Assembly (NCBI RefSeq): GCF_042453785.1
Contig: NC_091671.1
Span: 6,704,001-6,768,000 of the forward strand
Origin: Malus domestica
Taxonomy: Eukaryota; Streptophyta; Magnoliopsida; Rosales; Rosaceae
Reading direction: 5' to 3'
Length of the DNA: 64,000 nucleotides
Positions 39,218 to 61,145 of this stretch are shown here, piece by piece. How positions within the stretch are numbered: the first letter of the stretch is position 1; each line of letters starts with the position of its first letter. A program made the position numbers and the translations under genes. The notes under the pieces were generated by a model. The model searched no databases. It worked only from the letters and a program-made list of their open reading frames with translations, and was not told the DNA's origin.

Positions 39218-39711
39218 ATAATTTATTCACACACTGTACTTCAAACGGCTATCGAAAACTCGGAATCTCCACCCTAACCCCACGGCAGAGCTTATGTTTA
39301 AGGGATCTGACCTTAAATCCAAAATATACGTCCACACACTGTAGGACCCGCACCGATGAGTCGATGACTTTGCTCATCATCCTCTGGGGACAAACCAACT
39401 GGCCACTTGCAAAATCTTTTCCGCCATAGGAGCATATATAATGGACCACCATACTCATCATTATACTGCCTTGGCCTCTCTTTTAGCCAATAACAGAGAA
39501 TTACGTTTAAGGGGCTTCATTAAATCCATCTGAATCTTTGCCAGTCTGCTCTTTGCTTCTCTGGTATGTAATGTTCTACCGAAATTTGGACAAAAAATTG
39601 ATGAAAAAGATTAACCCTTCTGTTTAATGCAGTTGCTGGGTTTGCGGCTTGATTCTTTGTGCATTTTGGGTGCACCCCAAACGGGCAAGAGCAAAAGAGA
39701 GTCCGGAAGCC

Positions 39712-42182
39712 ATGGCAGAAGATGATTTGCCCACCAAGGCAGCAGTAGCAGAAGAAAATGAAGTGTATACCAAAGATGGGACTGTGGATTTTCGTGGAAA
39801 CCCAGCAAAGAGAAATGCAACAGGAACCTGGAAAGCCTGCCCGTTTATCCTGGGTACTTTTTGAAGATCTCTAACTTGCACCCCATGAACTTTCGTACTG
39901 GAAACTGTATCAAATATTGGGTTTTTGTTTTTATTTTTATTTTTAATTAAGCTAATTTTTTTTTAATTGATGTTTTTGGGTTTGATTTGTGAGCAGGGAA
40001 TGAATGCTGTGAGAGGTTGGCATATTATGGGATGAGCTCAAATCTGGTGATTTATTTCAAGACTCAATTGAACCAGACGAGTGCTGCTGCTGCGAAAAAT
40101 AACTCGAATTGGGGTGGAACTTGCTACCTTACTCCATTGCTTGGAGCTTTTCTGGCTGATGCCTATTTGGGAAGATACAAGACTATTGCCTCTTTCTCAA
40201 TCATTTATGTCATTGTAAGTTCTTCTGCCTTCAAATTCTTACTTTAGTTTATTTCAATTTGAAAAAGTAGTTAGCCAGCTTGGTAACCATTTCGTAATGA
40301 GTTTTTAGTTTTTACGTTACAAATATAAGGAAAATATACGCGAGAAACGGGAGATAAAATTGAAAACTAAAAACTAAAAATGAAATGATTATCAAGCCGG
40401 CACTTCTATTTTGCTTATCCAAATTGATTTGCAGGTGGCCCCTTAAGTCAAATCATAGCTACTGCAGGGTTCCAACCATACCCTTTACCTTAATTTTTCC
40501 AAACATATGACCCTGGTTGCTGTTGGAGTTTGGTGTTGTTGCGTTTTTATCTTCTCCATCAATAGAAATTTACGGATTGTGTGATAATTTTCATAGGGGA
40601 TGACACTTTTGACAATGTCAGCAGCGGTCCCGGGCATGAAACCAACCTGTGTTAGCAAAGATGTTTGCCATGCAAATGGTGGACAAACTGCAGCAACTTT
40701 CATAGCGCTTTACCTAATAGCGCTGGGCACGGGTGGGATTAAGCCGTGTGTCTCGTCCTATGGAGCAGACCAGTTTGATGATGACGATGAGGTTGAAAAG
40801 AAGCACAAGGGTTCCTTCTTCAACTGGTTCTATTTTTCCATCAATGTTGGTGCTATGATTGCTAGTTCTGTGTTGGTGTGGATACAAGACAACGTGGGTT
40901 GGGAATGGGGTTTTGGCGTTCCAGCAGTGGCAATGGCTATTGCTGTGCTGAGTTTCTTTTCGGGGACTCGGTTGTATAGGAATCAGAAGCCTGGAGGTAG
41001 TCCTTTGACACGCATAATTCAGGTGATTGTGGCATCTATTAGAAATTACAAGGTGAAAGTACCGGAAGACAAGTCCCTTTTGTATGAGACTGCAGATGCA
41101 GAATCTTCCATCCAAGGAAGCCGCAAGCTTGATCACACAAATGAATTCAGGTTAGTTTTTCAACTGAAAAATCTTCGTTACTTGTAAAAGTTAATTTTGC
41201 TAAGATGGTAGTAAGGCTCACTTCAGTTGAGTAATCAAACTATAAGATTGAGAGTTCTTTTTTCTCTAGCATTAGAGCGAACGAATAGTGGTTTTGTAGT
41301 TTTACTTTCGTTGTTGCTGTTCTGTTGGCCTGAAATTTACTGCGCAGGTTCTTCGACAAAGCAGCAGTGGAGGTACAAGGTGATCATACAAAGGACTCGA
41401 AAAGCCCATGGAGACTCAGTACAGTTACCCAAGTGGAGGAGCTAAAATCAATCATAAGGCTGCTTCCCATATGGGCCACTGGTATCATCTTTGCTGCAGT
41501 CTACAGTCAGATGAGCAACTTCTTTGTGTTGCAAGGCACCCTCATGGATATTCGTGTTGGCCGCTCTAACTTTGAAATCCCAGCAGCATCTCTTTCCATC
41601 TTTGACACCCTAAGTGTCATTTTTTGGGTCCCAATATACGATCGAATCATTGTCCCAGCAGCTAGAAAATACACCGGTCACAAGAATGGCCTAACTACAC
41701 TCCAAAGGATGGGCATTGGCCTCTTCATCTCCATATTCTCCATGGTCTGTGCTGCAGTTTTGGAACTCATCAGACTCCGAAGTGTTCGACAGAACAACTA
41801 TTACACACGCGAGCACATGCCCATGTCAGTCTTTTGGCAAGTACCTCAGTATTTCCTCATAGGAGCTGCAGAAGTTTTCACATTCATAGGACAGCTGGAG
41901 TTTTTCTATGATCAAGCCCCAGACGCCATGAGGAGCCTGTGTTCTGCTCTCTCACTCTCCACCATTGCACTAGGAAACTACTTCAACTCTATTCTTGTCA
42001 CCATCGTCACCAAAAGGACTACAAAGAACGGCAACCCTGGATGGATACCGAACAATTTGAACTACGGACACCTTGATTATTTCTTCTGGCTATTGGCAGT
42101 GCTGAGTGTTCTTAACCTTGGAGTATACCTCTTCATTGCCAAGTGGTACACGTATAAAAAGACAGTCGGGAGTCTGCGTTGA
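39712..42182 (+). CDS. NPF8: NPF8/PTR1-type peptide transporter, copy 2 (4 exons, 582 aa)
   Basis: Proton-coupled oligopeptide transporter of the same type as copy 1. Exons are 39712-39853, 39997-40214, 40597-41150 and 41348-42182, all GT-AG, total 1749 nt with stop. It begins [16 protein letters not shown] and keeps [15 protein letters not shown] (ExxER motif), the [21 protein letters not shown] helix-loop, [10 protein letters not shown] and [17 protein letters not shown]. Conserved residues typical of NPF8 are all present, so this copy looks functional. A probable 5' leader intron runs from 39564 (CTG|GTATGT) to 39632 (TAATGCAG|TTGC), 80 bp before the ATG. Introns are short and lack insertions, so this copy gives the empty sites used to date unit 2 insertions. 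Confidence 0.94.
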
Positions 42183-43192
42183 TCGCGAAAAGAAGTGATA
42201 CCATACGAAGCTGTTTCTGTCCCATGGTGATTTTTAAGTTTTACTTGGGTCTTCAATCACTTGTATATTTGTCTTGTGTATGCAATTCTGTTAAACGTGG
42301 GTGTTCTTATGAAGCAAGAATGGTTAAAAATGGAGTGAATTACAAGTCAATCTTTACACTTTTGTGCAGTTGATAAGGGAGTAGGGCTACAATACTTAGA
42401 ATCATTAAACAGTTTGCCAGTCGGCCACTGCTACAGAGTCTTCTTTGATCCAATTCAACGGCAACGGCTATTCAATCTTCTTTGGTTGTCGTTGGATTAG
42501 ATCCAAAAGCAACTTTTAGTGACTGTATTCAACTTATAGATAGTTTTTTCAGTGTGTTTGAACACGGCCTTGTATACCAAGTATCATAATGCAAGTGGTT
42601 GGATTTTGACTTGTATTATGACACGTGGATCGTGTTCTTAGCACACTAAAAAAATTTCTCCAATATTTAGGAGTATTGTAGAGTTTTTGGTTTATAAGAT
42701 AACCATTCTCTCCAAACATTTGTGTTTTGAAATAGGGGAAACCCTCAATCGGAAAAGTTAGGACTAGAGAATAAGATCAATTAATTTGTAGTTTTTTAGG
42801 CATTGCATTACTGACTGTAGTGTGGGAGTCACATGGTTTTTATATTCTGTATGTATAAGCAAACGCATGAATATCATTTGAGGCCTGTCATTTAACATGT
42901 GCCATGTAGAATAAGAAATTATCGAATAATTCATGTACTCGTTCTAATTAAGTAAACATGTGACACGTGTTATGCCTTGTTTGCTGTTTTTCATTTTTGG
43001 GTTTCTTGGTTGGTGGGTCATATAAACCCGGCTCAGTTGTCATAACTAAAGACGTAGCCCAATTCTCTCTTTACCCTCAAACAAAAGCCATTTGAGGCCC
43101 TTCATCTAACGTGTACCATGTGAATCTCCCTGGTAATTTAGTTTCGACTAGGAGCAAGATTACAGAAAACTAAGAGATTTGAACGATCGCAA
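42183..43192. other. NPF copy 2 downstream spacer with a hairpin MITE
   Basis: 3' flank of NPF copy 2 and 5' flank of the next gene, collinear with 56074-57101. It contains a fold-back element at 42550-42648 (ends CAGTGTG / CACACTA) matching 56461-56568. No gene is seen. Confidence 0.6.
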
Positions 43193-43831
43193 ATGGTTCT
43201 CAAACGCTATCAGGATGCTAAAGCAGGTAATAGTTTGATCAACCTCATGTGTTGCATTTCCGCAATTTGTGATTCTCTTTCGAATTTTCTTACAACCCTC
43301 CAACTGTTTGATCAAATGCCTCAGTGAAATGCACTAACCCTTTCTTCCGTTTTGAATGCGCTAATTTCAGGATACCAATTGGCCAAATCGTTCAATGCCG
43401 AGAAGTACTTGAGAAAAGTGGGATTGGGCAAAGAAGACTACTACTTCTGGAAGCAAATAGGCAAGGCATTGGTATGCACATACACGCTCTTCGGCGTGGC
43501 CTGGCTCTACAACGAGAAATCGCCACTTGGGTGGTGGACGCTGAAGCCTAGGCCCAAGGAAGAGAGAGAGCTAGCACACCTGTACGAGCGTCGCGAGTTC
43601 CCATACCCTGGGGATGAGGAAGCCATGGAAGAGTTTGTTGCCAAGGGGGGAATGATCGGCACGACAATTGGTCCGAAAGGGTTTGTCGAGACAGACAAAG
43701 ATGCGTTTAACTATCAGAAGGAGCTGCAGAAGAAGAAGCTGGAGCAGGAAGCTCAGAAGCTGTGGGTGAGGATGAAGAATGAGGTCATTTCGGAGCTTCA
43801 AGAGAAGGGCTACGTCGTTGAAGCTGAGTGA
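43193..43831 (+). CDS. Conserved plant protein of unknown function, unit 1 copy (2 exons, 164 aa)
   Basis: Exon 1 (43193-43226) encodes MVLKRYQDAKA and exon 2 (43371-43831) continues GYQLAKSFNAEKYLRKVG, joined in phase 1 by GT-AG. The 164-aa product has one hydrophobic stretch (ALVCTYTLFGVAWLY), then a basic, Trp/Pro-containing segment, and a C-terminal Lys/Glu-rich helix (QKELQKKKLEQEAQKLW) likely to form a coiled coil. The single hydrophobic segment suggests a small membrane-anchored protein, possibly organellar; that is inference. I do not recognise the family by name. It is almost identical to the unit 2 copy, and the coding frame is kept despite diverged flanks, which argues for a real gene. 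It faces the OCTOPUS-like fragment tail to tail. Confidence 0.85.
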
Positions 43832-44251
43832 AATTTGTAAAAGTTGGCATGGCTACGTGAAAGTTTATGACGTTTGTGTGTAAAAGTGATTACTGTTCAC
43901 ATTGCTTTTGGATAAAAGCACTTTGTGAGTTCTTGCTCAAGAATTGTTGTGAGATAAATGTACAAGACCTTGAATAATTTTATGGAATTCTCATTATTGT
44001 TTTAACAAAACCCTACTAAGCAAAAGCGCCTCGCAAAGAAACAAGGGACAAACACACTGCTCTGACCAAGATGTCTGGTCTGCGTCTGCTTCTCGTTCAT
44101 TGAACTAGAGTGAACCAATGATTTCAAAGATAAATTGCCTTATTGGCAATTTTGGCATTGTTAGGAAAAAAACATGTTAGAGGGGAAGTGTGTGTTCCTC
44201 ATAAAAGAAGAAAATACATTTATATTCGGCTCTACAACATAACGAATACAT

Positions 44252-45137
44252 CTACAAGACATTCTTGGGCAGAGATTGTGAGTTGTTGCCTGGCCTGCTC
44301 TTCCCGATTCGCTCCTCCGGTAGCTCCTCAGTGGCGTCAAGTAAAACCGCAGCAACCCGTGATCGAGATTGATTGGTGAATACCGAGCACTCTTGTTCCT
44401 CAGCAGAGTCTTGACTTCATTGCATTTGTTTTCCACCCCAACACCATTCACATTGCTAAACAAGCCAACCATTTTGCACTGGTTCCGGCAGCTGACGCTG
44501 TAACTCCGAATCAGCTTCTGACTCACGGATGCGTTGGCTTCTTCTCCACTGGCAACCCTCCTCAGCTTTTGCCAAGAATCCGCGGATTCTGCATCCACGC
44601 ATTTCTTCTCGCTTCTCCTCTGCATCAAACCCCAAAAACTCCACTTCTTGTGCCGCCTATTTGGCTTTTGCTGATCAACATCAACTCCATTGGTTGATTC
44701 CGAAGCAGCATTTTTACAAACAGGTTCACTGCCAATACTAACGCCGCCGCAGCTCTCTTCCGCACGCTCATCATCTTCAGCAGGTTTCGACTTCGGATTC
44801 GAACCCATCGAACTCATCAATTCCTTCTCTGTAATCAGCAGCTTGGCCCCATAGAACAACTCTGAAGTGGCAGGGGAGACTCTGGCATTTGATCCCAACT
44901 TCAGCTCGTCAACCTCCGCAGCCAAGGATCGATCGAAACTCGGCCGTTCGAAGCTCCGCCGCCGCTGCGAATTGTAATAGTCTTTGGTCTGAGCTGACCC
45001 GCCTGGATTTCGCTCCCAGTTTTCTTCCACAACCAAAACCATCCGGGTCAGCCTCGGCTGGGCGGCTCTCGGACCCAAATACCCGTCCCAAGAAGGCCGA
45101 GGCTCGTCCATTGACATCCGACCCGGATCCTGATCTA
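44252..45137 (-). pseudogene. 5'-truncated OCTOPUS-like (DUF740) gene, unit 1
   Basis: Matches the 3' part of the intact gene at 58216-59742, from DPDPGRMSMDE to the C-terminus. Roughly the first 210 codons and the promoter are absent because the duplication breakpoint at about 45137 falls inside the gene. A 1-bp deletion in the last ~20 codons replaces the normal end (GKGRPGNNSQSLPKNVL) with a different tail that reads on to 44161. Otherwise the frame stays open, with its first ATG at 45117 (MSMDEPRPSWDGYLG). Expression would need a new promoter from the adjoining unit 2 start. Most likely a pseudogene. Confidence 0.85.
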
Positions 45138-45790
45138 AGATCTCCGACTTATAAGTAAAGACATATACGATGGTGTGGGGTTGTAGTTCAAGACTGTTAT
45201 GGAGATTTGAAAGAGTGATAGCTATGAAATGAAGCACCTAGTTTGCTCTTCCTCTTTGGCAACTGAACTCTATGCAGTAATGTGTTTCTTGAATTTTCCA
45301 TAGATGGTAGAGTCGAACTTACTTATGGCTGTTCAGTTACCATCTAAAGAGGAGGTCTGTCAAGCAGCAGAAGGAAATTATATGGATGAAGTCCATTGTC
45401 ATCTGTAAGAACACACCCTAGCAACAGCATCAACAGGAAGGGTATGTCACCAAGACCGGTTGTCAGAAGACAAGAGCATCCGTCTCAAAATTTGTTTACA
45501 AAGTCATTGTTTCTCTCACATTAATAAATACTTTATTTATAAAAATTAAGTTTAGTGATGTAAATCATCCCAACACATGACACACTTTAAATGGGATGTA
45601 ACGCTCACGGATCGGCTAGTGGTTTCAACATTGTAGTTCATTTTTATGGAAGACGAAAAGACTTATAAAGATATTTCAGTATTTTTAGGCTATCATCATG
45701 TGATTCACTGATGCCAAAAATCAAACTCAAAACATGCCGTGTAAAATACAAGCTTGAAACTCCAACTTAACCACTGAGCCAAAAGAAAAA

Positions 45791-45985
45791 TGAGGATTCT
45801 GGAGATCCTCAAATCGTGTTCGTTCATCGTACATCGTGCAGCCAGAAATCATATTAAATATTGTTATTTAAAATTAAACATAAACAATACCTGACGAAAA
45901 TTGACCACACAATGTATGATAAACGGACACAATTTAAGAATTTCCAAAATCCTCACAAAGAGGATTAGAAGAAGATCCTCATTCC
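45791..45985. repeat. Fold-back MITE-like repeat, family A (unit 2 copy)
   Basis: About 195 bp with inverted arms containing 'gttcgttcatcgtacat' and its mirror 'atgtatgataaacg', and GAGGAT/ATCCTC ends. It matches 38853-39005 and 61146-61345. The arms could fold into a long hairpin. Confidence 0.7.
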
Positions 45986-46100
45986 CAAAAGAAAATAGCT
46001 AAATAATAACTTATATGGTTGTCGTGTATGCATATTCACGCACCGTACTTCAAACGGCTATCGATGACTTGGAATCTCCACCCTAACCCCACAGCACAGC

Positions 46101-46867
46101 AGACAAGAACTATTTCATTCCGAATTAAGACCTAAGAATCTTCGCAATTCTGGAATGAATCAATGGACAAATTGGTTAAGGAGTCATTATCAATATCAAA
46201 TTGATGTATCTCAAATTAAATGGACTAGAGTAGTACCACAAAAATGGCGAAATATATTGAACTGTATAGCTCAAAATAAAGATTTATATAATCCATGAAT
46301 ATTGATATGTATATTCCATAAAAAAAAAATTAAAAAATTTATCTTAATTAATTGTTTCTGAGTCACTGGTTCTTATTTCTTTTCTTTTGAAAGGGGTCGG
46401 TTAATAAAAAAAATTAAGATATATAAAATAAAACTTAAATAGAATTTTCTCTTTACAATGGGATTTTAGGGAGACCTTGGCTAATAAAGCTAGATACTGT
46501 CACTTCCGTCAAGTACCAAAAAATCTGATTCCGCATCCCCGGGAAGAGGAGTAAGAGAAATCAAGTTTGACTAGGCCGCATCTCGACGATGAACTGTGCA
46601 AGTATTATAGGAATAAAAGGGGAAGACGAAACATAAATTGTGGATCAACTAAGCCCTCTCGGGGACTTGTTTAAGAATAAGAAAGAGGAATCTCATGTAA
46701 ATACCATGGTATAGGGTTTGATCCTATTCATGGGGATTCCGTAAAAATTCCATTCCAAAGAGAGTAAGTTCGAAAGAATTGGGATTTTTTGGAGATTGGA
46801 TGCAGTTACTAATTCATGATCTGGCATGTACAAAATGAAAACTTCATTCTCTATTCTACGAGAATTT
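46101..46867 (+). other. Plastid DNA insertion (NUPT): ycf1 and ndhB pieces
   Basis: Absent from the matching place in unit 1 (near 39296). The first ~200 bp translate as a degraded ycf1/Tic214 segment ([28 protein letters not shown]). The last part (46815-46867) is the start of plastid ndhB (MIWHVQNENFIL, then STR), preceded by AT-rich non-coding sequence that fits an ndhB upstream region. In plastid genomes ycf1 and ndhB are not adjacent, so the insert is composite or rearranged. About 19 bp of unit sequence (46868-46887) separate it from the next insertion. It is non-functional nuclear-integrated organelle DNA. Confidence 0.8.
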
Positions 46868-47440
46868 CAAGGAATCTGTCCTTAAATTATCACAAATGAT
46901 CTCTGAAATTGATCTACACAATCAAGACAGTTCCTGAAATTGAAAATCGATCAATGTAGTCCCTGAAAATGCATGTCACAAATCAATGTGGTCATTCCGT
47001 CATAATTTCGTTAAAAATTCTGTTAAATGCTGATGTGGCACATAAATGAGTCCTACAAATTTAATTAAATATTATTATGTGAATAAAAAACAATTGTTAT
47101 TTTTTATAATTAAAATCTTAAAAAAAAAAGAAAAAGAAGGAGATGATTTCATGATCTTCTTCACCTCCCATCCTCCCACTACAGCCCCCACCCCACCCCT
47201 CCCTCTCTCCCATGAATGAGGATATAGTTAAAAAAAGGAAGGTTTAATAAAACACTTCTGGTACGGTTCACTTTTAACGAAAAATCACATTTTTTACCTT
47301 TAACTGTCGTTATTTACTATACCTTTAAAAATTACTTTTCGTGAAAAGGTAATTTTTTTTAAACTTTTCGTTAGTTTTCCTTTAAAAATATCCTTCAACT
47401 TGAACTAGTGAAGTGACAGAAAAATTGAAAAGTCATTTAC

Positions 47441-47720
47441 CTGGAGCTTTGTCAATATGTGTGCAATAATATCATCTCTGGCTAAACCAAGGACTCGGCA
47501 AGCAAGTGCACGGAGACAGTCCAGTGCTGCAGGAGGAGAATATATGCATGGGTGGAGGAGATGCAGAAGAACCTTTACACCATTGTTGGCGTTAACAGAT
47601 TCCCTTGCTTGGCGGTAGCCTTGCTCCAATTGTGCAGCCATGCCTGCACAACCTGCCCCAACTCCTAAAGATATTCGGCGATAGCCTTGCTCTAACTGGG
47701 TTTGTTGAAGCTGCAACTTC
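47441..47720 (-). pseudogene. Captured exon resembling DCAF1 (DDB1-CUL4-associated factor 1)
   Basis: The minus strand translates with MAAQLEQGYRQARE, then VNANNGVKVLLHLL, IYSPPAALDCLRALACRVL and LARDDIIAHILTKLQ. I recall this as the armadillo-like region of plant DCAF1, a CUL4-DDB1 ubiquitin-ligase substrate receptor. After LTKLQ comes CAG|GTAAAT, an exon end with its donor site retained, so a genomic rather than spliced piece was captured. LEQGYR appears twice, suggesting a small internal duplication. One Leu expected in CRVLLGLARDD is missing. It is only an exon-sized fragment inside a transposon. Confidence 0.65.
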
Positions 47721-47762
47721 GTGGGAGAGAGGGAGGGGTGGGGTGGGGGCTGTAGTGGGAGG

Positions 47763-48153
47763 TGTTAGTATGTAAGTTGTTAAGCTGATTAGTAAACATT
47801 ACAAGATTGTTATGTGTGTCATGTCTCAGCTCATAGGCTGAGCTATTGTGTAAAATTGTGATGTGTTGATTAAGTCTCATAGGGCTTATCATTTGACAAG
47901 TGTCTTGATCTTAAGATAGGTTGTAATGGTTGGTTGAGATTGAATTGAGGTTATATCTCTCTCTCTCTCATCTTTGTCATCAGTTAAATGTCTCTTCGGG
48001 TTGTTATGCCCAGTATGCAATACAATGATAGAAGTTGAAAGGTTATGCTCTGTGTTTGTGCTTTCTCTCTGATTTCATCTTCTAAATCCTTACAAACATT
48101 TCTCTCAAATACTGTTAGACTTAGTTATATAGTTGTGTAGCTGGATTCCAACA
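47763..48153. mobile_element. Solo LTR within the Pack-MULE right arm
   Basis: A 391-bp insert with TG...CA ends (TGTTAGTATG to GGATTCCAACA), flanked by a perfect 5-bp repeat GGAGG (47758-47762 and 48154-48158). Removing it restores continuity of the right inverted repeat. It contains a CT-rich tract near 47960. The parent LTR family is not identified. Confidence 0.75.
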
Positions 48154-48831
48154 GGAGGGTGGTTAAGGGAAGAAGATGATGAACAGTGTTCAATCATCTG
48201 CTTCATCTTTTTTTATTTTTATTTTTAAAATTTTAATTAAAAAGATAACAATTGTTTTTATTATTTAAATATTTTTATTTAAATATTTAATTAAATTTGT
48301 GGATATGTTACATCAGCATTTAACATAATTTTTAATTGAATTATGACGGAATGACATATTGATTTGTGACAACCATTTTCAAGGATTATATTGATCAATT
48401 TCATAAACTATCTTGATTGAGTGAATTAATTTCATAGACCATTTATCATAAAAACCCAATCCAAAATATACGTCCACACCCCTGCATTGATGAGCCGATG
48501 ACTTTGCTCATCATCCTCTTCCCTACGCATACGCATCATTATACTGCCTTAGCTTATATAGTGGACCACCATACGCATCATTATACTGCCTTAGCTTCTC
48601 TTTTAGCCAATAACAGAGAATTACATTTAAAGGGCTTCATTAAATCCATCTGAATCTTTGCCAGCCTGCTCTTCGCTTCTCTGGTATGTAATGTTCTGCA
48701 GAAATTTGGACAAAAAATTGATGAAAAAGATTAACCCTTTTGTTTAGTGCAGTTGCTGGGTTTGCAGCTTGATTCTTTGTGAATTTTGGGTGCACCCCAA
48801 AAGGGCAAGAGCAAAAGAGAGTCCAGAAGCC

Positions 48832-51800
48832 ATGGCAGAAGATGATTTGCCCACCAAGGCAGCAGTAGCAGAAGAAAATAATGTGTATACCAAAGATGGA
48901 ACTGTGGATTTTCGTGGAAACCCAGCAAAGAGAAATGAAACAGGAACCTGGAAAGCCTGCCCTTTTATCCTAGGTACTTTCTGAAGATCTCTAACTTGCA
49001 TCCCATGAACTTTAGTACGGAAAATTGTATCAAATATTGGGTTTTTATTTTTATTTTTATTTTTATTTTTGTTGGAAACTCCATTTGTCCCACATCGGAC
49101 AGAGGGAGAAGAGAAGAGTACTTTAAATAGAATTATTCTACTTTAACTAACACCGAGGCCTTTGGTTAAGTGGGTACAGTATCGGTGTTATTGGAGTGGA
49201 CCCTTGATCCGATGAAAAATTCTACAATTTTTAATTATGCTTTTTTTTTTATTGTTTTAATTGATGTTTTTGGGTTTGATTTGTGAGTAGGGAATGAATG
49301 CTGTGAGAGGTTGGCATATTATGGGATGAGCTCAAATCTGGTGATTTATTTCAAGAGTCAATTGAACCAGACGAGTGCTGCTGCTGCGAAAAATAACTCG
49401 AATTGGGGTGGAACTTGCTACCTTACGCCATTGCTTGGAGCTTTATTGGCTGATTCCTATTTGGGAAGATACAAGACTATTGCCTCTTTCTCACTCATTT
49501 ATATCATTGTAAGTCCTCCTGCCTTCAAATTCTTACCTTAGTTTATATCAATTTGGAAATGTTGGAACTAAAAAGAATGGCAGTAAGCTATGCAAAGTTT
49601 GAGCGCACGAAAGCTGGGAGAATGTTATTAAGCTAAACAGCAATTGTGGCTATTAAATAGCCTTACACCGAGATAGGAATGAAGATAACTACCCACGACT
49701 TTACAGGTCCTATAATCATGGGCATGACTACGTTGAACATAAAAGAAAACAAACTGGTGGTTCCTCAAGTTAAGGAGGAATTATTCAACATAACAGAGAT
49801 AAACCCTAAAAACTAGGAACCCTAACCCTAACGGCTCGGAAGCTCCAACAGTTTCATCATCCTCCCTTAAATTGGATGTCATTGTCATTCAGTTTATACA
49901 TGGATATTCACACACACCCAGTAAGCTCCGCATCTTCAAAAACATATCAAGCTTTACAGGCTTTGTTAGAACATCTGCAATTTGTTCTTGTGTAGAACAA
50001 TGAGTTAACTCCAGAATTCCATCCTTGACAAGATCGCGAAGGAAATGGAATCTTATATCAATGTGCTTGCTGCGACCATGCATCACAGGGTTCCTTGAGA
50101 GTTTTATTGCTGAGATGTTATCACAAAACACCACGGTTGGACAGCTTTGCTCTTGATTTAGAACTTTCAAAATTCTTCTTATCCACACAACCTGGCATGC
50201 ACTGGATGCTGCAGCTATGAACTCAGCTTCGGTGGTAGAGAGAGTAACCACGGGTTGCTTCTTTGAAGACCAAGAGACAGCTCCCGAGCTCAGTAGAAAA
50301 GCATAGCCTGAAGTGCTTTTCCTATCATCTTGATCGCCAGCATAATCACTGTCTGTGTACCCTACGAGTTCTTCACTTCCTCCCTTCCTGTAGAACATCC
50401 CAAAACTAATTGTGCCCTTCACATACCTCAAGACTCCTTTTGCTGCTAGTAGGTGAGACTCAGTAGGACGCTCCATGTACATGCTGATCAGGCTGACGAC
50501 AAACATCAAATCGGGGCGTGTGGCAGTCAAGTACATGAGACTTCCCATTATCTGCTTGTAGATCGTGCTGTCAACTTCAGTTCCTCCTTCATCTTTTGTG
50601 AGCTTAAAGCCAGGAACCACTGGATTATGTACCGAGTTGCACTGATCCATATTGAACCTTTCCAGGACCTCTTGAGCGTACTTCGGTTGACTGATAAAGA
50701 TACCATCTGTCCTTTGTAATATTTCAATACCAAGAAAGTACCTCATTCTTCCAAGATCAGTCATGTCAAACTCGATCATCATGGATTTTTTAAATTTTTC
50801 GAACATCAATTCATCATTGCCAGTGAATATAAGATCATCAACATACAAACACATAATTAAAATGTTACCTCCACCAGTAGTTTTAGTGAATAACGTGTGC
50901 TCATAAGGACATTTGATGAAGCCTTCTCTAATGAAATATGCCTCAATGTGACTGTACCAAGCTCGGGGAGCCTGTTTGAGTCCATACAAGGCCTTCTTGA
51001 GTCGATAAACCTTAGATTCATGCCCCTTCTGTTCATAACCTGGAGGTTGATCGACGTAAACTTCTTCATTAATTTCCCCATGCAGAAAGGCCGACTTAAC
51101 GTCAAGTTGATAAACTGCCCAAGTTTTCTGAGCAGCAAGGGCTAAGACAATTCGAATGGTGTCCATGCGTGCCACAGGTGCGAATACTTCAGCGTAATCA
51201 ATTCCATACTGCTGACAATATCCCTTGGCAACTAGCCGAGCCTTGTATTTGTCTACTTCTCCATTTTCGTTGAACTTAGTCTTAAAGACCCACTTAACTC
51301 CTATGGTTTTCCCTCCTGATGGCAGCACTGTTAATTCCCATGTGTCGTTTTTTTCAATAGCTTGTATTTCTTGATCCATGGCTATCCTCCATTTATCGGA
51401 CTTCACGGCTTCTTCGAATATGAAGGGATCCCCATCAGTGAACAAGGCTAGATGTTCTAAGTTTACACTTTCTTCATCAGAGAGACCTTGTCCAGTTTCA
51501 TAGTCTCTCATCCATATTGGTGGTCTTCGGGCACGTACTTCTCGATACGAGGTTTCATCATTTGAAGTATTGCCTTCGGCAGACTCAGTTTCTCCACCCG
51601 ATTCTTCATTGGCTTCAGACTCTTCTTCATCCCCCTCTTCTGCCAGTTCTGCTTCTCCTTCAGTCTCCCACTCGAGATCAGCTTGCTTTTGACCTTCGTC
51701 CCAATTCCATTGTTGATCTTCTTCAAATACCACATCTAGACTAACAATTATTTTATTTGAAAGAGGATCAAATAATCCGTAGGCCTTAGACTCCTTACTT

Positions 51801-54800
51801 ACCCCAAGTAAAATGCATTTGAAGCTCTTGGCATCGAGCTTTACTCGTCTGTTGTCAGGTACATGCACGTGACAAATGCATCCAAAAACACGAAATGATC
51901 CACTGATGGTTTGTGTCCACTTCATGCCTCATCAGGTGTTTTGTTCTTCACAGTAAGAGTTGGACATCGATTTAGAACATGCACCGTCCAATTTACTGCT
52001 TCAGGCCAGAAGGTATTGGGAATGTGCTTTGCTAACAACATGCTTCGCACCATATTCATAATAGTGCGATTCTTCCTTTCCGCGACACCGTTTTGTTGAG
52101 GTGTATAGGCAGCCGTCAACTGTCTATGAATTCCATTCTCATTGCAGAAGTTGATGAATTCATGTGATGTGAATTCTCCCCCACGATCTGTTCTCAGGCT
52201 CCGTACGTATGTCCCATTTTCCTTCTCAACTTTTGCTTTGTAGGTTTTGAACGTGGCAAATGCTTCTGACTTCTCTGCCAAGAAATAAACCCACGTTTTT
52301 CTACTGAAATCATCAATGAAAGTGATAAGATACCTCTTATTGCTGTTTGAAACCGGGTTGATTGGTCCACAAATATCTGTATGCACCAACTGAAGAATGT
52401 TGGAGGCTCTCCACATGCTCTCCTTTGGAAATGGGTCACGGTGCTGTTTTCCCACCAGGCAGTCTTCACACACCTTTGGAGAAGTTTGAAACCGAGGCAA
52501 CCCTGTCACCATGTTCTTTAGTTAAAGCACTTTGAGCCCATTCCAGTTAAGATGTCCATATCGATGGTGCCAAATATCTGCTTGATCTGTGGTCAGTGTG
52601 GAGAAGCATTGTTGTTTCTTTGGTGCGAAGCGAGCACGTACTGCAAACATCCTGTTATATGTCATCCCAGTTTCCATGATTAAACCTTTCTCACAGTCAA
52701 AGATTTTGCATTTCCCATGTTTGATAAGTACTGCCAGCCCCTTTTCTTGTAACTGACCGATGCTCAACAGGTTGTTTTTCAGGTCTGTCACATAGAAGAC
52801 TTCTGTGATTGCATGCACAAGTCCATTAACCTCTATGCGAATCTTACCCTTCCCTTGTACAGTAAGACTCGAGTTGTTCCCAAGCTTCACTGATTCTCGA
52901 AAGCTGCTGTCGAGATCACAAAACATGTCTTTGTTCCCACACATGTGGTTGCTACACCCAGAGTCAAGGTACCAAATGTGCTCCACCGTATCCTCTTTGG
53001 AGTTCACAAGAGCCATCAATAGTATCTTCTCCTTTGTATATGCATAATTTGCTTTTTGTTCCGTGGCTCGCTTAGGGCATTCCCATTGAAAGTGCCCTAG
53101 TTCATGACAATGGTAGCACTCCAAGGTGGATTTGTCGAACCCAAACCTACCCCTTCCTCTTCCTCTTCCTCGATAGGTACCTCGTCCCCCACCTCTTCCT
53201 CCTTGCTGGGATCCATGAGTGATTTGAAGTGCTTGTTCCTCGTCCACATGTCGGCTGATCCGTTGTTCATGCACCAAGAGACTGCTTTGTAGCTCGTCTA
53301 TGGACATCATATCCAGATCACTGGATTCTTCAATGGAGCAAACCACGTAATCATATTTTGTAGTCATAGACCTGAGAATCTTTTCAATGATTACCACATC
53401 ATGCATTTGCTCCCCATGCGTTCTCATCTTACTAGCTATGGTGAGAGTTCTGCCAAAATAGTCATTAACAGACTCACCAAACTTCATGTGTAGCACTTCA
53501 AACTCCCTGCGAAGAGCCTGCAATTGAGCTCGCTTGACACACGTTCCTTGATACTTCTGCTTCAAGGAATCCCAGATATCTTTCGCCGTATCTTTCTTCA
53601 ACATGGTCTCCAGTGTCGAACGATCTATGGCTTGGAACAGGTAGTTCTTAGCCTTAAGATCCTTCAACCTCTGATCCTCATAGGTCTTCTTTGTGATCCC
53701 TGTCTTTACCAAGTTCCAATACTCCTTGGAACGCATAAAGTTCTCCATCAGCATACTCCAATGGTCATAGTGACCATCAAACTTTGGAATGGCAGGTTGC
53801 ACAAAACTACTCTCGGATGCCATATCTTTGTTTCTTCACTCTAGTACTGGACTTACAAGCCTTTTGATCAAGCCCCGTGATGGGGCTCTGATACCAGATG
53901 TTGGAACTAAAAAGAATGGCAGTAAGCTATGCAAAGTTTGAGTGCACGAAAGCTGGGAGAATGTTATTAAGCTAAACAGCAATTGTGGCTATTAAATAGC
54001 CTTACACCGAGATAAGAATGAAGATAACTACCCACGACTTTACAAGTCCTATAATCATGGGCATGACTACGTTGAACATAAAAGAAAACAAACTGGTTCC
54101 TCAAGTTAAGGAGGAATTATTCAACATAACAGAAATAAACCCTAAAAACTATGAACCCTAACCCTAACGGCTAGGAAGCTCCAACAGTTTCATCAGGAAA
54201 AGTCCGTTAGCCAGTTTGGTAACCATTTCGTATTGAGTTTTTCGTTAAAAATATTAGGAAAATATATGCAAGAAACGAGAGATAAAAAATGAAAACTAAA
54301 AACTAAAAATGAAATGATTATCAAGCCAGCACTTCTATTTTGCTTATCCCAATTGATTTGCAAGTGGCCCTTAAGTCAAATCATAGCTTACTGCAGGGTT
54401 CCAACCAAACCCTTTACCTTAATTTTTCCAAACATATGACCCTGGTTGTTGTTGGAGTTTGGTTTTGTTGCGTTTTTATCTTCTCCATCAATAGTTTATG
54501 GATTGTGTGATAATTTTCATAGGGGATGACACTTTTGACAATGTCAGCATCGGTCCCGGGCATGAAACCAACCTGTGTTAGCAAAGATGTCTGCCATACA
54601 AATGGTGGACAAACTGCAGCAACTTTCATAGCGCTTTACCTAATAGCGCTGGGCACGGGTGGGATTAAGCCGTGTGTCTCGTCCTATGGGGCAGACCAGT
54701 TTGATGATGACGATGAGGTTGAAAAGAAGCACAAGGGTTCTTTCTTCAACTGGTTCTATTTTTCCATCAATGTTGGTGCTCTGATTGCTTTTTCTGTGCT

Positions 54801-56073
54801 GGTGTGGATACAAGACAACGTGGGTTGGGGATGGGGTTTTGGCGTTCCAGCAGTGGCAATGGCAATTGCTGTGCTGAGTTTCTTTTCGGGGACTCGGTTG
54901 TATAGGAATCAGAAGCCTGGAGGTAGTCCTTTGACACGCATAATTCAGGTGATTGTGGCGTCCATTAGAAATTACAAGGTGAAAGTACCGGAAGACAAGT
55001 CCCTTTTGTATGAGACTGCAGATGCAGAATCTTCCATCCAAGGAAGCCGCAAGCTTGATCACACAAATGAATTCAGGTTAGTTTTTATACCGAAAAATCT
55101 TCGTTACTTATAAAAGTTAATTTTGCGAGTAATCAAGATTGAGAGTTCTTTTTTCTCTAGCATTAAAGCGATTGGTGGTTTTGTAGTTTTACTTTCGTTG
55201 TTGTTGCTGTTCTATTGGCCTGAAATTTTACTGCGCAGGTTCTTTGACAAAGCAGCGGTGGAGGTGCAAGGTGACCAGATAAAGGACTCGAAAAGCCCGT
55301 GGAGACTCAGTACAGTTACCCAAGTGGAGGAGCTAAAATCAATCATAAGGCTGCTTCCCATATGGGCCACTGGTATCATCTTTTATGCAGCCGGCAGTCA
55401 GATGAGCAACTTCTTTGTGTTGCAAGGCACCCTCATGGATATTCGTGTTGGCCGCTCTAGCTTTGAAATCCCAGCAGCATCTCTTACCATCTTTAACACC
55501 CTAAGTGTCATTTTTTGGGTTCCAATATACGATCGAATCATTGTGCCAGCAGCTAGAAAATACACCGGTTACAAGAATGGCCTAACTACACTCCAAAGGA
55601 TGGGCATTGGCCTCTTCATCTCCATATTCTCCATGGTCTGTGCTGCAGTTTTGGAACTTATCAGACTCCGAAGTGTTCGACAGAACAACTATTACACATA
55701 CGAGCACATGCCCATGTCAGTCTTTTGGCAAGTACCTCAGTATTTCCTCATAGGAGCTGCAGAAGTTTTCAAAGTCATAGGACAGCTGGAGTTTTTCTAT
55801 GATCAAGCCCCAGACGCCATGAGGAGCCTGTGTTCTGCTCTCTCACTCTCCACCTTTGCACTAGGAAACTACTTCAACTCTATTCTTGTCACCATCGTTA
55901 CCAAAATGACTACAAAGAACGGCAACCCTGGATGGATACCGAACAATTTGAACTACGGACACCTTGATTATTTCTTCTGGCTATTGGCAGTGCTGAGTGT
56001 TCTTAACCTAGGAGTATACCTCTTCATTGCCAAGTGGTACACGTATAAAAAGACCGTCGGGACTCTGCGTTGA
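48832..56073 (+). CDS. NPF8: NPF8/PTR1-type peptide transporter, copy 3 (4 exons, 582 aa, Copia in intron 2)
   Basis: Exons 48832-48973, 49291-49508, 54523-55076 and 55239-56073 keep GT-AG borders and total 1749 nt, so the frame is intact. The ExxER motif (ECCERL) is present. It differs from copy 2 at about 20 residues in exons 3-4. Some are unusual for NPF8: [11 protein letters not shown] where copies 1 and 2 read [11 protein letters not shown] or [23 protein letters not shown] instead of [12 protein letters not shown], placing a Lys in a helix; and a Phe for Ser in [10 protein letters not shown]. Intron 1 holds a 157-bp LTR-like insert and intron 2 (about 5 kb) a full-length antisense Copia element. 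Splicing across it is possible but untested. It may be a transporter under relaxed or altered selection. Confidence 0.85.
49070..49226. mobile_element. 157-bp LTR-like insertion in NPF copy 3 intron 1
   Basis: TG...CA ends (TGTTGGAAACTCC to AAAATTCTACA) with a 5-bp repeat ATTTT on both sides (49065-49069 and 49227-49231). It is absent from the same intron of copies 1 and 2. Internal TCCCACATCGG is a word often seen near plant LTR starts. Fits a small solo LTR. The ATTTT duplication lies in an AT-rich context, so it is weaker evidence than a mixed 5-mer. Confidence 0.6.
49560..49859 (-). repeat. Copia 3' LTR (300 bp)
   Basis: Begins TGTTGGAACTAAAAAG and ends CAACAGTTTCATCA on the plus strand, paired with 53899-54195. 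Confidence 0.92.
53899..54195 (-). repeat. Copia 5' LTR (297 bp)
   Basis: Partner of 49560-49859. The initiator-Met-type primer-binding site lies immediately inside it at about 53885-53896. Confidence 0.92.
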
Positions 56074-57101
56074 TCATGAAAAGAAGTGATACCATAAGAA
56101 GCCAGTTCTGTACTGTGGTGATTTTTAGGTTTTATTTTTGTTTTCAATCACTTGTAAATAGTTTGTCTTGTGTATGCAATTCTGTTAAACGTGAGTGTTC
56201 TTATGAGATGTTAAAACTTTCAATGAAGCAAGAATGGTTAAAAATGGAGTGAATTACAAGTCAGTCTTTACACATTTGTGGAGTTGATAAGGGAGTATGG
56301 CTACAATACTTAGAAGCATTCAACAGTTTGCCAGTCGGCAACGGCTACACAGTCTTCTTTGATCCAATTCAACGGCAACGGCTATTCAATCTTCTTTGAT
56401 TGTCGTTGGATTAGATCTAAAAGCTCTAAGTGACTGTATTCAACTTTTAGAGAGATTTTTTAGTGTGCTGGAGCATGGCCTAGTATACCAAGTGTCATAA
56501 TGCAAGTGGTTGGACTTGGACATGTATTATGATACTTGGTATATTGGGTCGTGTTCTCAGCACACTGAAAAATTTCTCCAATATTTAGAAGTATTGTAGA
56601 TTTTTTGGTTTGTAAGGTAACCAATCTCTCCGAACATTTGTGTTTTGAAATAGGGGAAACCCTCAATCGGAAAAGTTAGGAATAGAGAATAAAATCAATT
56701 AATTCGTAGTTTTTTAGGCATTGCATTACTGACTATAGTGTGGGAGTCACATAGTTTTTAAATTATGTATATGTAAGTAAACGCATGAATGTCATTTGAG
56801 GCTTGTCATTTAACATGTGCCATATAGAATAAGGAATTATAGAATAATTGCAATACTCGTAAACATGTGACGTATGCGCTATGCCTTGTTTGCTCCTTTT
56901 TCATTTTTGGATTTCTTGGTTGGTGGGTCATATAAACCCGGCTCAGTTGCCATAACTAAAGACGTAGCCCAATTCTCTCTTTACCCTCAAACAAAAGCCA
57001 TTTGAGGCCCGTCATCTAACGCGTACCATGTGAATCTCCCTGAAAATTTAGTTCGACTCGGAGCAAGATTGCAGAAAACTAAGGGATTTGAACGATCGCA
57101 A
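56074..57101. other. NPF copy 3 downstream spacer with a hairpin MITE
   Basis: Collinear with 42183-43192. At 56461-56568 is a near-palindromic element of about 108 bp with arms of roughly 50 bp (ends TAGTGTGCTG / CAGCACACTGA; interior TATACCAAGT and its inverse). It was present before the segmental duplication because unit 1 has it at 42550-42648. No gene is seen. Confidence 0.65.
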
Positions 57102-57737
57102 ATGGTTCTCAAACGCTATCAGGATGCTAAAGCAGGTAATAGTTTGATCAACCTCATGTGTTGCAGTTTCCGCAATTTGTTCTTCTATTTCGATTTTTCA
57201 ACCCTCCAACTGTTTGATCAAATGCCTCAGTGAAATGCCCTAACCCTTTCTTCCGTTTTGAATGCGCTAATTTCAGGATACCAATTGGCCAAATCGTTCA
57301 ATGCCGAGAAGTACTTGAGAAAAGTGGGATTGGGCAAAGAAGACTACTACTTCTGGAAGCAAATAGGCAAGGCACTGGTGTGCACATACACGCTCTTCGG
57401 CGTGGCCTGGCTCTACAACGAGAAATCGCCACTTGGGTGGTGGACGCTGAAGCCTAGGCCCAAGGAAGAGAGAGAGCTAGCGCACCTGTACGAGCGTCGT
57501 GAGTTCCCATACCCCGGGGATGAGGAAGCCATGGAAGAGTTTGTTGCCAAGGGGGGAATGATCGGCACGACAATTGGCCCGAAAGGGTTTGTCGAGACGG
57601 ACAAAGATGCGTTTAACTATCAGAAGGAGCTGCAGAAGAAGAAGCTGGAGCAGGAAGCGCAGAAGCTGTGGGTGAGGATGAAGAATGAGGTCATTTCGGA
57701 GCTTCAAGAGAAGGGCTACGTCGTTGACGCTGAGTGA
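57102..57737 (+). CDS. Conserved plant protein of unknown function, unit 2 copy (2 exons, 164 aa)
   Basis: Exons 57102-57135 and 57277-57737, GT-AG, 495 nt with stop. The product is nearly identical to the unit 1 copy; the change I see is near the C-terminus (VVDAE versus VVEAE). It has the same layout: short basic N-terminus (MVLKRYQDAKAGYQ), one hydrophobic segment, EFPYPGDEEAMEEFVAKGG in the middle, and a charged C-terminal helix. The intron and flanks differ more than the coding sequence, consistent with purifying selection on both copies. The family is not recognised by name. Confidence 0.87.
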
Positions 57738-58063
57738 AATTGTAAAAGTTTGCATGGTTATGTGAAAGTTTATGACGCTTGTGTGTAAAAGTGATTACTG
57801 TTCGCATTGCTTTTGGATAAAAGCACTTTGTGAGTGCTTGCTCAAGAATTGTTGTGAGATAAATGTACAAGACCTTGAATAATTTTATGTAATTCTGATT
57901 ATTGTTTTAACAAAACCCTACTAAGCAAAAGCGCTTCGCAAGGAAACAAAGGACAAACACACTGCTCTGACCAACATGCCTAGTCCAGTCCGCTTCTTGT
58001 TCATTGAACAAGAGTGAACCAATGATTTCAAAGATAAATTGCCTTATTGGCAATTTTGGCATT

Positions 58064-58102
58064 CAACAACAACAACAAAACTTTTTCCCACTAAGTGTGG
58101 GG
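58064..58102 (-). mobile_element. 39-bp 5'-truncated SINE tail with an 18-bp target duplication
   Basis: On the minus strand it reads CCCCACACTTAGTGGG, then AAAAAGTTTTGTTG and further TTG units, which I recall as the 3' end of Au-type plant SINEs. It is bracketed by perfect 18-bp repeats attggcaattttggcatt (58046-58063 and 58103-58120). Unit 1 (about 44145-44160) has the target only once. Target length and 3'-only content are what LINE-driven retroposition with 5' truncation leaves. Confidence 0.75.
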
Positions 58103-58215
58103 ATTGGCAATTTTGGCATTGTTAGGAAAAAAAACATGTTAGGGGGGAAGTGTGTGTGTTCCTCATAAAAGAAGAAAATGCATTTATATTCGGCTTTACA
58201 ACATAACGAATACAT

Positions 58216-59742
58216 CTACAAGACATTCTTCGGCAGAGATTGTGAGTTGTTGCCTGGCCTGCCCTTTCCCGATTCGCTCCTCCGATAGCTCCTCAGCGGC
58301 GTCAAGTAAAACCGCAGCAACCCGTGATCAAGATTGCTTGGTGAATACCGAGCACTCTTGTTTCTCTGCAGAGTCTTCACTTCATTGCATTTGTTTTCCG
58401 CCCCAACACCATTCACATTGCTAAACAAGCCAACCATTTTGCACTGGTTGCGGCAGCTGACGCTGTAACTCCGAATCAGCTTCTGACTCACGGACGCGTT
58501 GGCTTCTTCTCCATTGGCAACCATCCTCAGCTTTTGCCAAGAATCCGTGGATTCTTCATCCACGCATTTCTTCTCGCTTCTCCTCTGCATCAAACCCCAA
58601 AAACTCCACTTCTTGTGCCGCCTATTCAGCTTTTGGTGGTCAACATCAACCCCATTGGTTGATTCCGAAGTGGCATTTTTACAAACAGGTTCACTGCAAA
58701 TCCCAACGCCGCCGCGGCCCTCTTCCGCACGCTCATCATATTCAACAGGTTTCAACTTCGAATTCGAACCCATCGAACTCATCAATTCCTTCTCTGTAAT
58801 CAGCAGCTTGGCCCCATAGAACAACTCTGAAGAGGCAGGGGAGACTCTGGCATTTGATCCCAACTTCAGCTCGTCAACCTCCGCAGCCAAGGATCGATCG
58901 AAACTCGGCCGTTCGAAGCTCCGCCGCCGCTGCGAATTGTAATAGTCTTTGGTCTGAGCTGACCCGCCTGGACTCCGCTCCCAGTTTTCTTCCACAACCG
59001 AAACCATCCGGGTCAGCCTCGGCTGGGCGGCTCTCGGACCCAAATACCCGTCCCAAGAAGCCCGAGGCTCGTCCATTGACATTCGACCCGGATCCGGATC
59101 AGTATCGCACGATCTTCTCCCCAATGCGTACTCTCCAACCTCCGACTGGGTCTCCCGCCGCTTCTCCGCTACGAAACCCTCGTTCTCAACCTTCTTCATC
59201 TTCTGCTTCCGCCGCCATTGCCTCACCTTCCTGCACAAAACCGACGTCGTTCCCCAAAATGTCCCTGCAATGTCCTTCAAATCCCTACCCGCACCCTTCT
59301 TCTTCTCCCATTCCAGATCTATCAACTCCTTCATCGTCTTGAACTCCGCATCCGCATCCAAATCCAAAACATTACCTTCGTCTCCACCTTCGTTCTTCTC
59401 CTCATCTCTCACTTCGACATCGAACTTTCTCGGCACTCCCTTGCGGTCGTCGTCGATGTTGAAGAGCTCGGACAGAGTGTTCCGGGCCCTTACATCGCAG
59501 GACTTGCGCCGGGTCGGGTCAAGTGCGTTTTCCGACGACGATTCGGGTCTCGTTCCGGCACACGACTTGCATCTCCGGAGCTCAGACCCGGAATGGGGGT
59601 TCTGAGTCGGGGGTTCATGGTGAGCGGCGGCGGCGGAGTCGAGGCCTGCGAGGCGTTCGCTTAGGCAGGGGGCGCAGAATCCGGTGATGGGTTTGGTAGG
59701 GTGACGGTGACAGGTGGATAGGCGGTGAGTTTGGGGTTTCAT
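58216..59742 (-). CDS. OPL: OCTOPUS-like protein (DUF740 / UPF0503 family), 508 aa, intronless
   Basis: A single-exon gene. The start was chosen at ATG 59742 because MKPQTHRLSTCHRHPTKP opens the conserved N-terminal Cys/His-containing block (TCHRHP..ITGFCAPCLSERLAGLD) of this family; upstream in-frame sequence is low-complexity. Further conserved parts are RRKSCDVRARNTLSELF, MKELIDLEWEKKK, DIAGTFWGTTSVLCRKVRQW, RPSFDRSLAAEVDELKLG, KWSFWGLMQRRSEKK and the C-terminal HGLLRFYLTPLRSYRRSES. OCTOPUS (At3g09070) is a polar plasma-membrane-associated protein promoting phloem differentiation, and paralogues are OPL proteins. Which member this represents is not decided; at 508 aa it is shorter than the ~680 aa I recall for OPS. 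It converges with the unknown 164-aa gene upstream. Confidence 0.88.
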   Translation of the reverse strand: MKPQTHRLSTCHRHPTKPITGFCAPCLSERLAGLDSAAAAHHEPPTQNPHSGSELRRCKSCAGTRPESSSENALDPTRRKSCDVRARNTLSELFNIDDDRKGVPRKFDVEVRDEEKNEGGDEGNVLDLDADAEFKTMKELIDLEWEKKKGAGRDLKDIAGTFWGTTSVLCRKVRQWRRKQKMKKVENEGFVAEKRRETQSEVGEYALGRRSCDTDPDPGRMSMDEPRASWDGYLGPRAAQPRLTRMVSVVEENWERSPGGSAQTKDYYNSQRRRSFERPSFDRSLAAEVDELKLGSNARVSPASSELFYGAKLLITEKELMSSMGSNSKLKPVEYDERAEEGRGGVGICSEPVCKNATSESTNGVDVDHQKLNRRHKKWSFWGLMQRRSEKKCVDEESTDSWQKLRMVANGEEANASVSQKLIRSYSVSCRNQCKMVGLFSNVNGVGAENKCNEVKTLQRNKSARYSPSNLDHGLLRFYLTPLRSYRRSESGKGRPGNNSQSLPKNVL

Positions 59743-61145
59743 TGCTCTTCTAGAGTTGGAGGAGGAGGGCGGAGGCGGTGGTAGCTGAGAGTGCGTGCAT
59801 GGCAGAAGAAGGAAGTGGTGTGTCAGTAAGAGAGGCGGTGAAGTTGAGAAAGGAAAGGGAAATTGGAAAAAAAATGGAAACACCGGATAAATCCCCTTTT
59901 TGGGATTTTATGGTATCCATGAATCATTTTTTATTTTATTTTTATTTTTCTAAGCAATTAGCATGGAGATGCAGGAGTCACAGAGGAGGAAGAATCCTAT
60001 GCGTATAGGAATTTATGGCAATTTTAGCAGCATGCATATAATAAAATGTTATTTATGTTGTAGGGCCTATTTATTTTTATTTTTTTAAAAGGATTCGAAC
60101 GTTGTTTTGTCACGATAATCTATCTTTTTGGTCTGAAAAGACTCATATAGGAATTTCAGTCTACCCTTGATCATCATATAATGATTCATCAACGTCAGAA
60201 ATCGAATTCAAAATGTGTCGTCTGAAATACGGATCAAGATATGTTGATATCCCAATTACATTCACACATTGACATATTTTAGTTAGTACATGCATTAACT
60301 TATCACAATTATGTAAACGGCTGAACAACGGAGCCTAATGTTCCTCTCGATCTAAATTATTAGAATAGTCAATAGAAGCTGAAATATAAGTTACCACTGA
60401 GTAGTTACAATGCTTGTTCACTAAACAAGATTTAGGTCCTCTTATTATCTTAATAACTTTTTAGTTCAAATATAAGTTATCTATTAAGAACAATGATGTG
60501 TAAAAAAATTGTGAAAACTTATTCCATCGAAAAAATGATTTCCGCATCCTCTTTTTATGTTCTCATGCACTCATTTCTTTATAGTCTTTGAATTGAATAA
60601 TCAACGGATATAAATAAAAGAAGAAGCATGGGAGCAAAAAATAATACTGTGGAAATTGTTTCTCTTTTCGGTAATCTCAGCTTCATATTTTTTTTTTTGT
60701 TGGATTGAATCGAACAATAATACATCAAATTATTTGGTATATAATAAATGAATTTGCGTAGAAGTTAAAACGTTTGCTAGTGCATGATTATCTTGTTGAA
60801 CTTGAAACTTCTTGATGAGTCTTGAGAACTTTGCTTGCGGTTGCAGCAGAAGAAGGGCGTGCATGTAAATATCAGTCAGTGTGAAGTAGAAGGAAACTTA
60901 CAGCTTTCCGGCCCACGGAAGGCCCAACATTAGTCGCACACTTTTCTTGGATTCTGGGTTTGTTAACGTAAACAAATGCAAAATCCAACCACTTCCTTGC
61001 GTTGCGGACGTGCACAAAATTTTTAGGTCAACTGCACTACGGACACCACCATTGACATCGAAATCCACAACTTATCTAGCATTCCCAAACCAATATGTGG
61101 TGGTAAGAAATAAGGAGTTCAAATCCTCCCAGGAGTATCATCGCT
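59743..61145. other. OCTOPUS-like upstream region and intergenic
   Basis: The first ~150 bp are the probable 5' leader and promoter of the OCTOPUS-like gene. The rest is AT-rich spacer with no supported gene. Confidence 0.5.

Follow-up and report, generated by a model that had tools for sequence, protein, structure and literature searches.

The window analysed here is a 64,000-nucleotide stretch of the Malus domestica genome (RefSeq assembly GCF_042453785.1, contig NC_091671.1, positions 6,704,001 to 6,768,000 of the forward strand). Positions 46887-48457 of this window are occupied by a long-armed inverted-repeat element of the non-autonomous Mutator-like type, and a gene of the NPF/PTR transporter type begins 374 bp downstream of it. 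The 5' part of this gene (48832-49508, plus strand) has its ATG at 48832 and a second exon at about 49290-49508. The product of the second exon matches SLC15A1 (E = 8.9e-16) and NRT1.1 (E = 1.1e-9) in a search of solved structures, and a Pfam search with a 73-aa NPF exon recovered no family at E values up to 0.001. Between the arms of the element lies an exon fragment of DCAF1. It lies upstream of the NPF gene and is encoded on the other strand, and only in this latter sense does the term antisense, used in the preliminary description, apply; the two do not overlap.

In the window, the NPF 5' part is present in three tandem copies (20667-21343, 39316-40265 and 48458-49559), and the two copies that were read at the insertion point differ by the element plus other insertions. 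A pair of direct repeats (49559-49859 and 53898-54195), which are 97% identical and about 4.3 kb apart, probably represents both LTRs of a retrotransposon that lies within the NPF gene. The NPF intron also harbours a short dispersed repeat (49064-49228) with matches on many chromosomes, several of them as pairs about 400 bp apart, which we assume may be a TRIM-like element. Moreover, the segments 43002-45135 and 56912-59100 form a direct duplication of about 2.1 kb with 95-96% identity. Rfam searches of 40000-60000 gave nothing at gathering thresholds.

The left arm of the element spans 46887-47216 on the plus strand. The right arm, on the minus strand, is split by an inserted LTR into an inner part (47718-47762) and an outer part (48159-48457). 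When the LTR is omitted, the two arms agree at 263 of 312 aligned positions (84%), the alignment having 44 gap columns; 20 shuffled right arms reached 46% on average and 49% at most. The inverted repeats of about 330 bp postulated before are thus borne out, and the proposed span of 46888-48457 was correct to within a few bases. The inner 45 bp of the arms match at 44 positions (98%), a strong match but not the perfect 40-bp one that had been reported, whereas the outer arms are about 79% identical. The right arm has an intact tip (reverse complement GGGTTTTTATGATAAATGG) and ends at the boundary 48457|48458. The left arm, by comparison with sibling elements, has lost its outermost ~6 bp, the family tip GGGTTT. 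The interior could be assigned to DCAF1 sequence, a MITE and a remnant of a TGA-type gene, and the sequence inserted into the right arm to an LTR. No transposase is among the parts so assigned; the earlier statement that the element lacks one agrees with this inventory. The preliminary anatomy had captured the arms and the exon. It did not include the solo LTR and the MITE nested in the element, nor the filler at the junction and the damage to the left tip.

The captured DCAF1 sequence amounts to 319 bp on the minus strand, in which a partial exon with its splice donor is joined to intron sequence. The exon part (47441-47682) has an open frame with one codon deleted, and is followed by intron (47382-47440) with the GT of the donor at 47440-47439, in the context CAG|GTAAAT. 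A distal piece of the intron (47214-47236) is identical over 23 bp to L009 5671-5693 and overlaps the left arm by 3 bp. Once the MITE in the intron is discounted, the capture is contiguous in a gene on contig C15 (L009 5375-5693). Our genome searches covered the 651-Mb assembly with its 19 contigs (C1-C19). The captured stretch without the MITE was found at three places, the element itself, C15 and C8, and all three candidates were scored. Its identity to C15:8038374-8038678 is 94.7%, and to the C8 copy 90.8%. An 80-aa peptide from the window matches the DCAF1 entries 7v7b and 7okq (E = 3e-4), and the large exon of the C15 locus matches DCAF1 structures (E = 1.6e-44). Thus, the host-like exon with its splice donor, the DCAF1-like peptide, a parental locus and, as detailed below, a dispersed set of siblings, for which a genome search had been proposed, were all recovered.

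The two DCAF1 loci were compared with the window and with the element. When seven stretches of the C15 gene were searched against the window by tblastn (E up to 0.01), the captured stretch alone was found; the exon does therefore not belong to a normal spliced DCAF1 gene at this site, which had been put forward as a point to be checked. At the C8 locus six of the seven stretches are present; their protein identity is 82-98% and no stop codon interrupts the matches. The 10 kb surrounding the C8 DCAF1 gene did not yield the first stretch. The 10 kb around the C15 gene contain no arm match at E values up to 1e-3, and those around the C8 gene a single one of 20 bp (95%, E = 5e-4). No second element with DCAF1 cargo was found in the genome among the three candidates, all scored, nor any sign that the element was amplified after the capture. 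Because the intron is present, the capture must have been copied at the level of DNA.

Comparison of the three sequences gives a clue to the source and the fate of the capture. Of 291 comparable positions, 24 are variable: the capture alone differs at 10 of them, C15 alone at 2 and C8 alone at 12. The small number of C15-specific changes suggests, in a comparison without an outgroup, that the piece was taken from the C15 gene after the C15 and C8 copies had separated. Within the captured exon, the two genes show 12 synonymous differences from each other and no nonsynonymous one. The capture differs from C15 by 5 nonsynonymous codons and one lost codon; the capture-specific counts of 4 synonymous and 5 nonsynonymous changes gave P = 0.006 in Fisher's test. 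No purifying selection on the captured exon was found, in view of its 5 nonsynonymous codons, the lost codon and the 4 capture-specific synonymous changes. Judged by these substitutions, the DCAF1 genes on C15 and C8 look constrained and the captured exon unconstrained. The captured exon is most likely a decaying fossil in a functionally inert, presumably no longer mobile element.

The junctions of the capture turned out to be informative. Reading inward from the right arm on the minus strand, the arm end GAAGTTG is followed by GCAGCTTCAACAAACCCAGTT and by 19 bp of DCAF1 (L009 5428-5446). The sequence then returns to L009 5375 via a shared ATCGCC, continues through the remaining DCAF1 and reaches the left arm, with which it shares TTC. 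The 19-bp piece (47677-47695, minus strand) is an exact copy that is out of order, and its 6-bp microhomology ATCGCC can be read as the trace of a template jump. The stretch between it and the arm (47694-47714, minus strand) is a 21-bp remnant of exon 1 of a TGA-type bZIP gene. Its length is 19-21 bp, and the final TT could equally be DCAF1. The four junction overlaps of 1, 2, 6 and 3 bp sum to 12, for which a simple random model gives P of about 5e-4; the model is rough, as it leaves base composition and our own choice of boundaries aside. Two other interpretations of this region were rejected. A 10-bp stretch at the right junction, GAAGTTGCAG, had been considered an inverted scrap of DCAF1, but the siblings L063 and L067 show GAAGTTG at the inner end of their arms. 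Similarly, the filler at first appeared to be unique in the genome (only itself within two mismatches), until a shifted 21-bp pattern found sibling elements.

This 21-bp remnant matches a sibling element on C17 at 21 of 21 positions, elements on C2, C9 and C15 with one mismatch, and a host gene as well as one further place on C16 with two; the reversed pattern, used as a control, also gave one match within two mismatches. The C16 host gene encodes DOG1 (PF14144, E = 5.7e-32) and bZIP (PF00170, E = 5.6e-7) domains, a combination that we take to mark a TGA-type factor. In the sibling elements the remnant sequence belongs to a larger host-derived interior, and the TGA-bZIP fragment is present in at least five of them (L063, L076, L081, L082 and L014, on C15, C2, C17, C9 and C12). 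These siblings form an amplified Pack-MULE lineage in their own right. Since the remnant is common to their cargo, the family already had the TGA fragment, of which the copy studied here keeps a scrap. Direct copying of the remnant from the C16 host gene is an alternative that the matches also allow.

Two insertions are nested in the element. An abundant MITE with approximate ends at 47230 and 47388 interrupts the captured intron. At least 39 matches of 83-88% identity, one of them only 37 bp long, were found besides the element itself, C15 and C8, with 40 of 1493 candidates scored. As the MITE is absent from the DCAF1 genes on both C15 and C8, it entered the intron after the capture. The right arm contains a 391-bp solo LTR (47763-48153, plus strand), flanked by the target-site duplication GGAGG (47758-47762 and 48154-48158). 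Seven matches of this LTR were fetched, and just after the LTR, in the direction that corresponds to the plus strand here, two of them (L004 and L005) show TGGTATCAGAGC, two (L003 and L007) show a variant of it and the other three show neither. We consider TGGTATCAGAGC to be a primer-site-like motif. From its position past the LTR on the plus strand we infer that the plus strand is the sense strand of the solo LTR, which thus faces the NPF gene and not the captured exon.

The arms belong to a dispersed family, for which at least 50 matches were obtained including the element itself, with 40 of 1226 first-look candidates scored. Sibling elements end in GGGTTTTTATCACAAATG or a near variant of it. 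A target-site duplication of 9 bp is the hallmark of Mutator elements, and it was counted here with the ends fixed at the family tip, using 21 of 33 locus records. Seven records were left out because they repeat the same element (L030, L034, L038, L039, L040, L051 and L052), four because they have one end only (L026, L029, L033 and L036), and L046 because its outer left end is not clear; the right end of L012 was placed by hand. Among the 21 siblings, five have flanks identical at 9 of 9 positions, five at 8 of 9 and 11 at 7 of 9 or fewer, for which we regard shifted or damaged ends and age as the cause. Flank identity peaks at 9 bp, with a mean of 0.69 versus 0.40-0.51 at 6, 7, 8, 10, 11 and 12 bp, and none of 420 control pairings of left and right flanks from different siblings was exact at 9 bp. 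The copy at 46887-48457 has no intact target-site duplication of its own, and the 9-bp rule therefore rests on the siblings. Together, the arms shared with a dispersed family and the 9-bp duplications of its members support, at the level of sequence, the classification of the element as Mutator-like. A locus on C2 that was considered as an autonomous 5-kb MULE was rejected, since it is a sibling interrupted by an LTR retrotransposon. Finally, the interiors of two siblings (L028:1805-2280 and L045:754-1418) resemble mosaics of pieces from several other places, and a search for their host gene named none.

The insertion site could be compared with its counterpart in a tandem NPF paralog, which is free of the element. 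There, the sequence GGGATCTGACCTTAAATCCAAAATATACG at 39302-39330 (plus strand) is uninterrupted. The match between this empty site and the left flank of the element runs as far as TTAAAT; on the right, the flank picks up at AATCC. The left junction is ~13 bp short of what a 9-bp target-site duplication plus a full tip would give, which indicates a small deletion there; the left tip seems to have lost these ~13 bp in this way. Farther to the left, at about 46105-46867, the flank contains an unrelated patchwork insertion that is absent from the tandem paralog. It holds a ~180-bp repeat with many copies, a 245-bp stretch that is up to 98% similar to places on C5 and C15, and a piece of about 150 bp (46300-46450) with a 95% match to contig C19, which we assume may be of plastid origin.

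These results lead us to regard the element, with a probability of roughly 0.93, as a single-copy Pack-MULE that lies upstream of an NPF gene and whose cargo, now decaying, was copied as DNA from the C15 DCAF1 gene through template-switching repair. The original proposal of a Pack-MULE carrying a DCAF1 exon accordingly holds, with the 9-bp duplications of the siblings, the empty site in the paralog and the C15 parent behind it. As the donor gene, the empty site, siblings with the earlier cargo and short junction overlaps are all preserved, the copying path is readable. It would have led from one arm over ~20 bp of older TGA-bZIP cargo into 19 bp of DCAF1, then by a jump of ~66 bp back within DCAF1 through the 319-bp piece, and on to the other arm. 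The element lies upstream of one of the tandem NPF genes, and the adjacent copy lacks it. Later, the captured intron received the MITE, and the right arm an LTR retrotransposon of which a solo LTR is left. Template-switching repair is probably what replaced the older cargo. A more specific version, to which we give somewhat less than even odds, has the cargo swapped in a single repair event: a MULE carrying TGA-bZIP cargo would have broken internally, and the inner end of one arm would have been copied onto the other, followed by the scrap of old cargo and by DCAF1 in two jumps. The recopying of the arm in such an event is suggested by the 98% identity of the inner arms as opposed to about 79% in the outer ones. 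If true, this would be a legible plant case of Pack-MULE formation by gap filling or template switching, which might have occurred in situ, with no transposition involved.

That a processed pseudogene or a segmental duplication of DCAF1 came to lie between unrelated inverted repeats could be imagined from a fragment so short and alone, but this explanation has a negligible probability and was rejected on account of the retained intron and the direct junctions between arms and fragment. The ends of the fragment coincide with the inner ends of the arms, the sequence of the empty site picks up again precisely at the right tip, and no C15 sequence past the 319 bp and its 19-bp repeat was found. 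The two remaining rivals concern what the element might do. It could act as an insertion in the promoter, in which the element and its LTR alter the expression of the adjacent NPF gene and the cargo is irrelevant. The distance of 374 bp to the NPF start codon, the absence of the element from the tandem copy (39302-39330) and the shared orientation of LTR and NPF gene would fit such a role, which we nevertheless deem unlikely, as this NPF copy seems to hold the further LTR element (49559-49859 and 53898-54195) and may be impaired already.

Still less probable, in our estimate a long shot, is a role as silencer in trans, in which a transcript of the element or a hairpin of its arms would give rise to small RNAs that lower DCAF1 expression. 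Exact matches for such RNAs exist: the capture shares 89 of 281 21-mers and 75 of 278 24-mers with the C15 DCAF1 gene, and 46 of 281 and 34 of 278, respectively, with the C8 gene. Small RNAs from Pack-MULEs are, moreover, described in passages of PMC8277862 and PMC13317346. Yet the solo LTR, to judge from its primer-site motif, would be transcribed towards the NPF gene rather than the captured exon, the captured intron is split by the MITE, and the DCAF1-bearing element is present in one copy only. The 12 synonymous and 0 nonsynonymous differences between the C15 and C8 exons, furthermore, are as expected for genes that still matter. We therefore retain the interpretation as an inert, decaying Pack-MULE.

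Pack-MULEs are reportedly known from rice through the work of Jiang et al., in 2004, as cited in PMC8903248 and PMC13317346. Like these, the element described here has Mutator-type arms, no transposase inside, part of a host exon with intron sequence, a parental gene elsewhere that is devoid of arms, and a 9-bp target-site duplication in its family. It differs from them in its host, its single copy, its damaged left tip and target-site duplication, and the apparent replacement of its cargo. A search of the openly licensed PMC literature found no paper that treats a Pack-MULE and DCAF1 together. In its accessible passages, PMC11197308, a paper that names Malus, has Pack-MULE in the reference list only, and those of PMC8903248 mention neither Malus nor apple. 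The latter passages show that captures by Pack-MULEs, be it of one locus or of several, are well documented. As in the Pack-TYPE elements covered there, genic material from more than one locus is joined in one element; unlike in those, the first cargo is here a junction remnant of ~20 bp that was identified through siblings. The effects of small RNAs from Pack-MULEs are reviewed in PMC13317346, as far as its available part shows.

The type of event is thus well known. Of interest are the readable junction and the probable exchange of cargo, and the copy at 46887-48457 is an unusually readable record of how a piece of a host gene was captured. The passages of PMC8277862 treat the way in which plant Pack-MULEs acquire gene fragments as an unsettled question. 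They argue for an origin of animal Pack-TIRs by gap filling or fork switching (FoSTeST) and consider it worthwhile to explore this model for plant Pack-MULEs. The parent is nearby in more than half of the animal Pack-TIRs treated there, whereas the donor of our element is on another chromosome. With the Pack-TIRs, as portrayed in these passages, the element shares short fillers, microhomology at the breakpoints and a capture that is present in a single copy.
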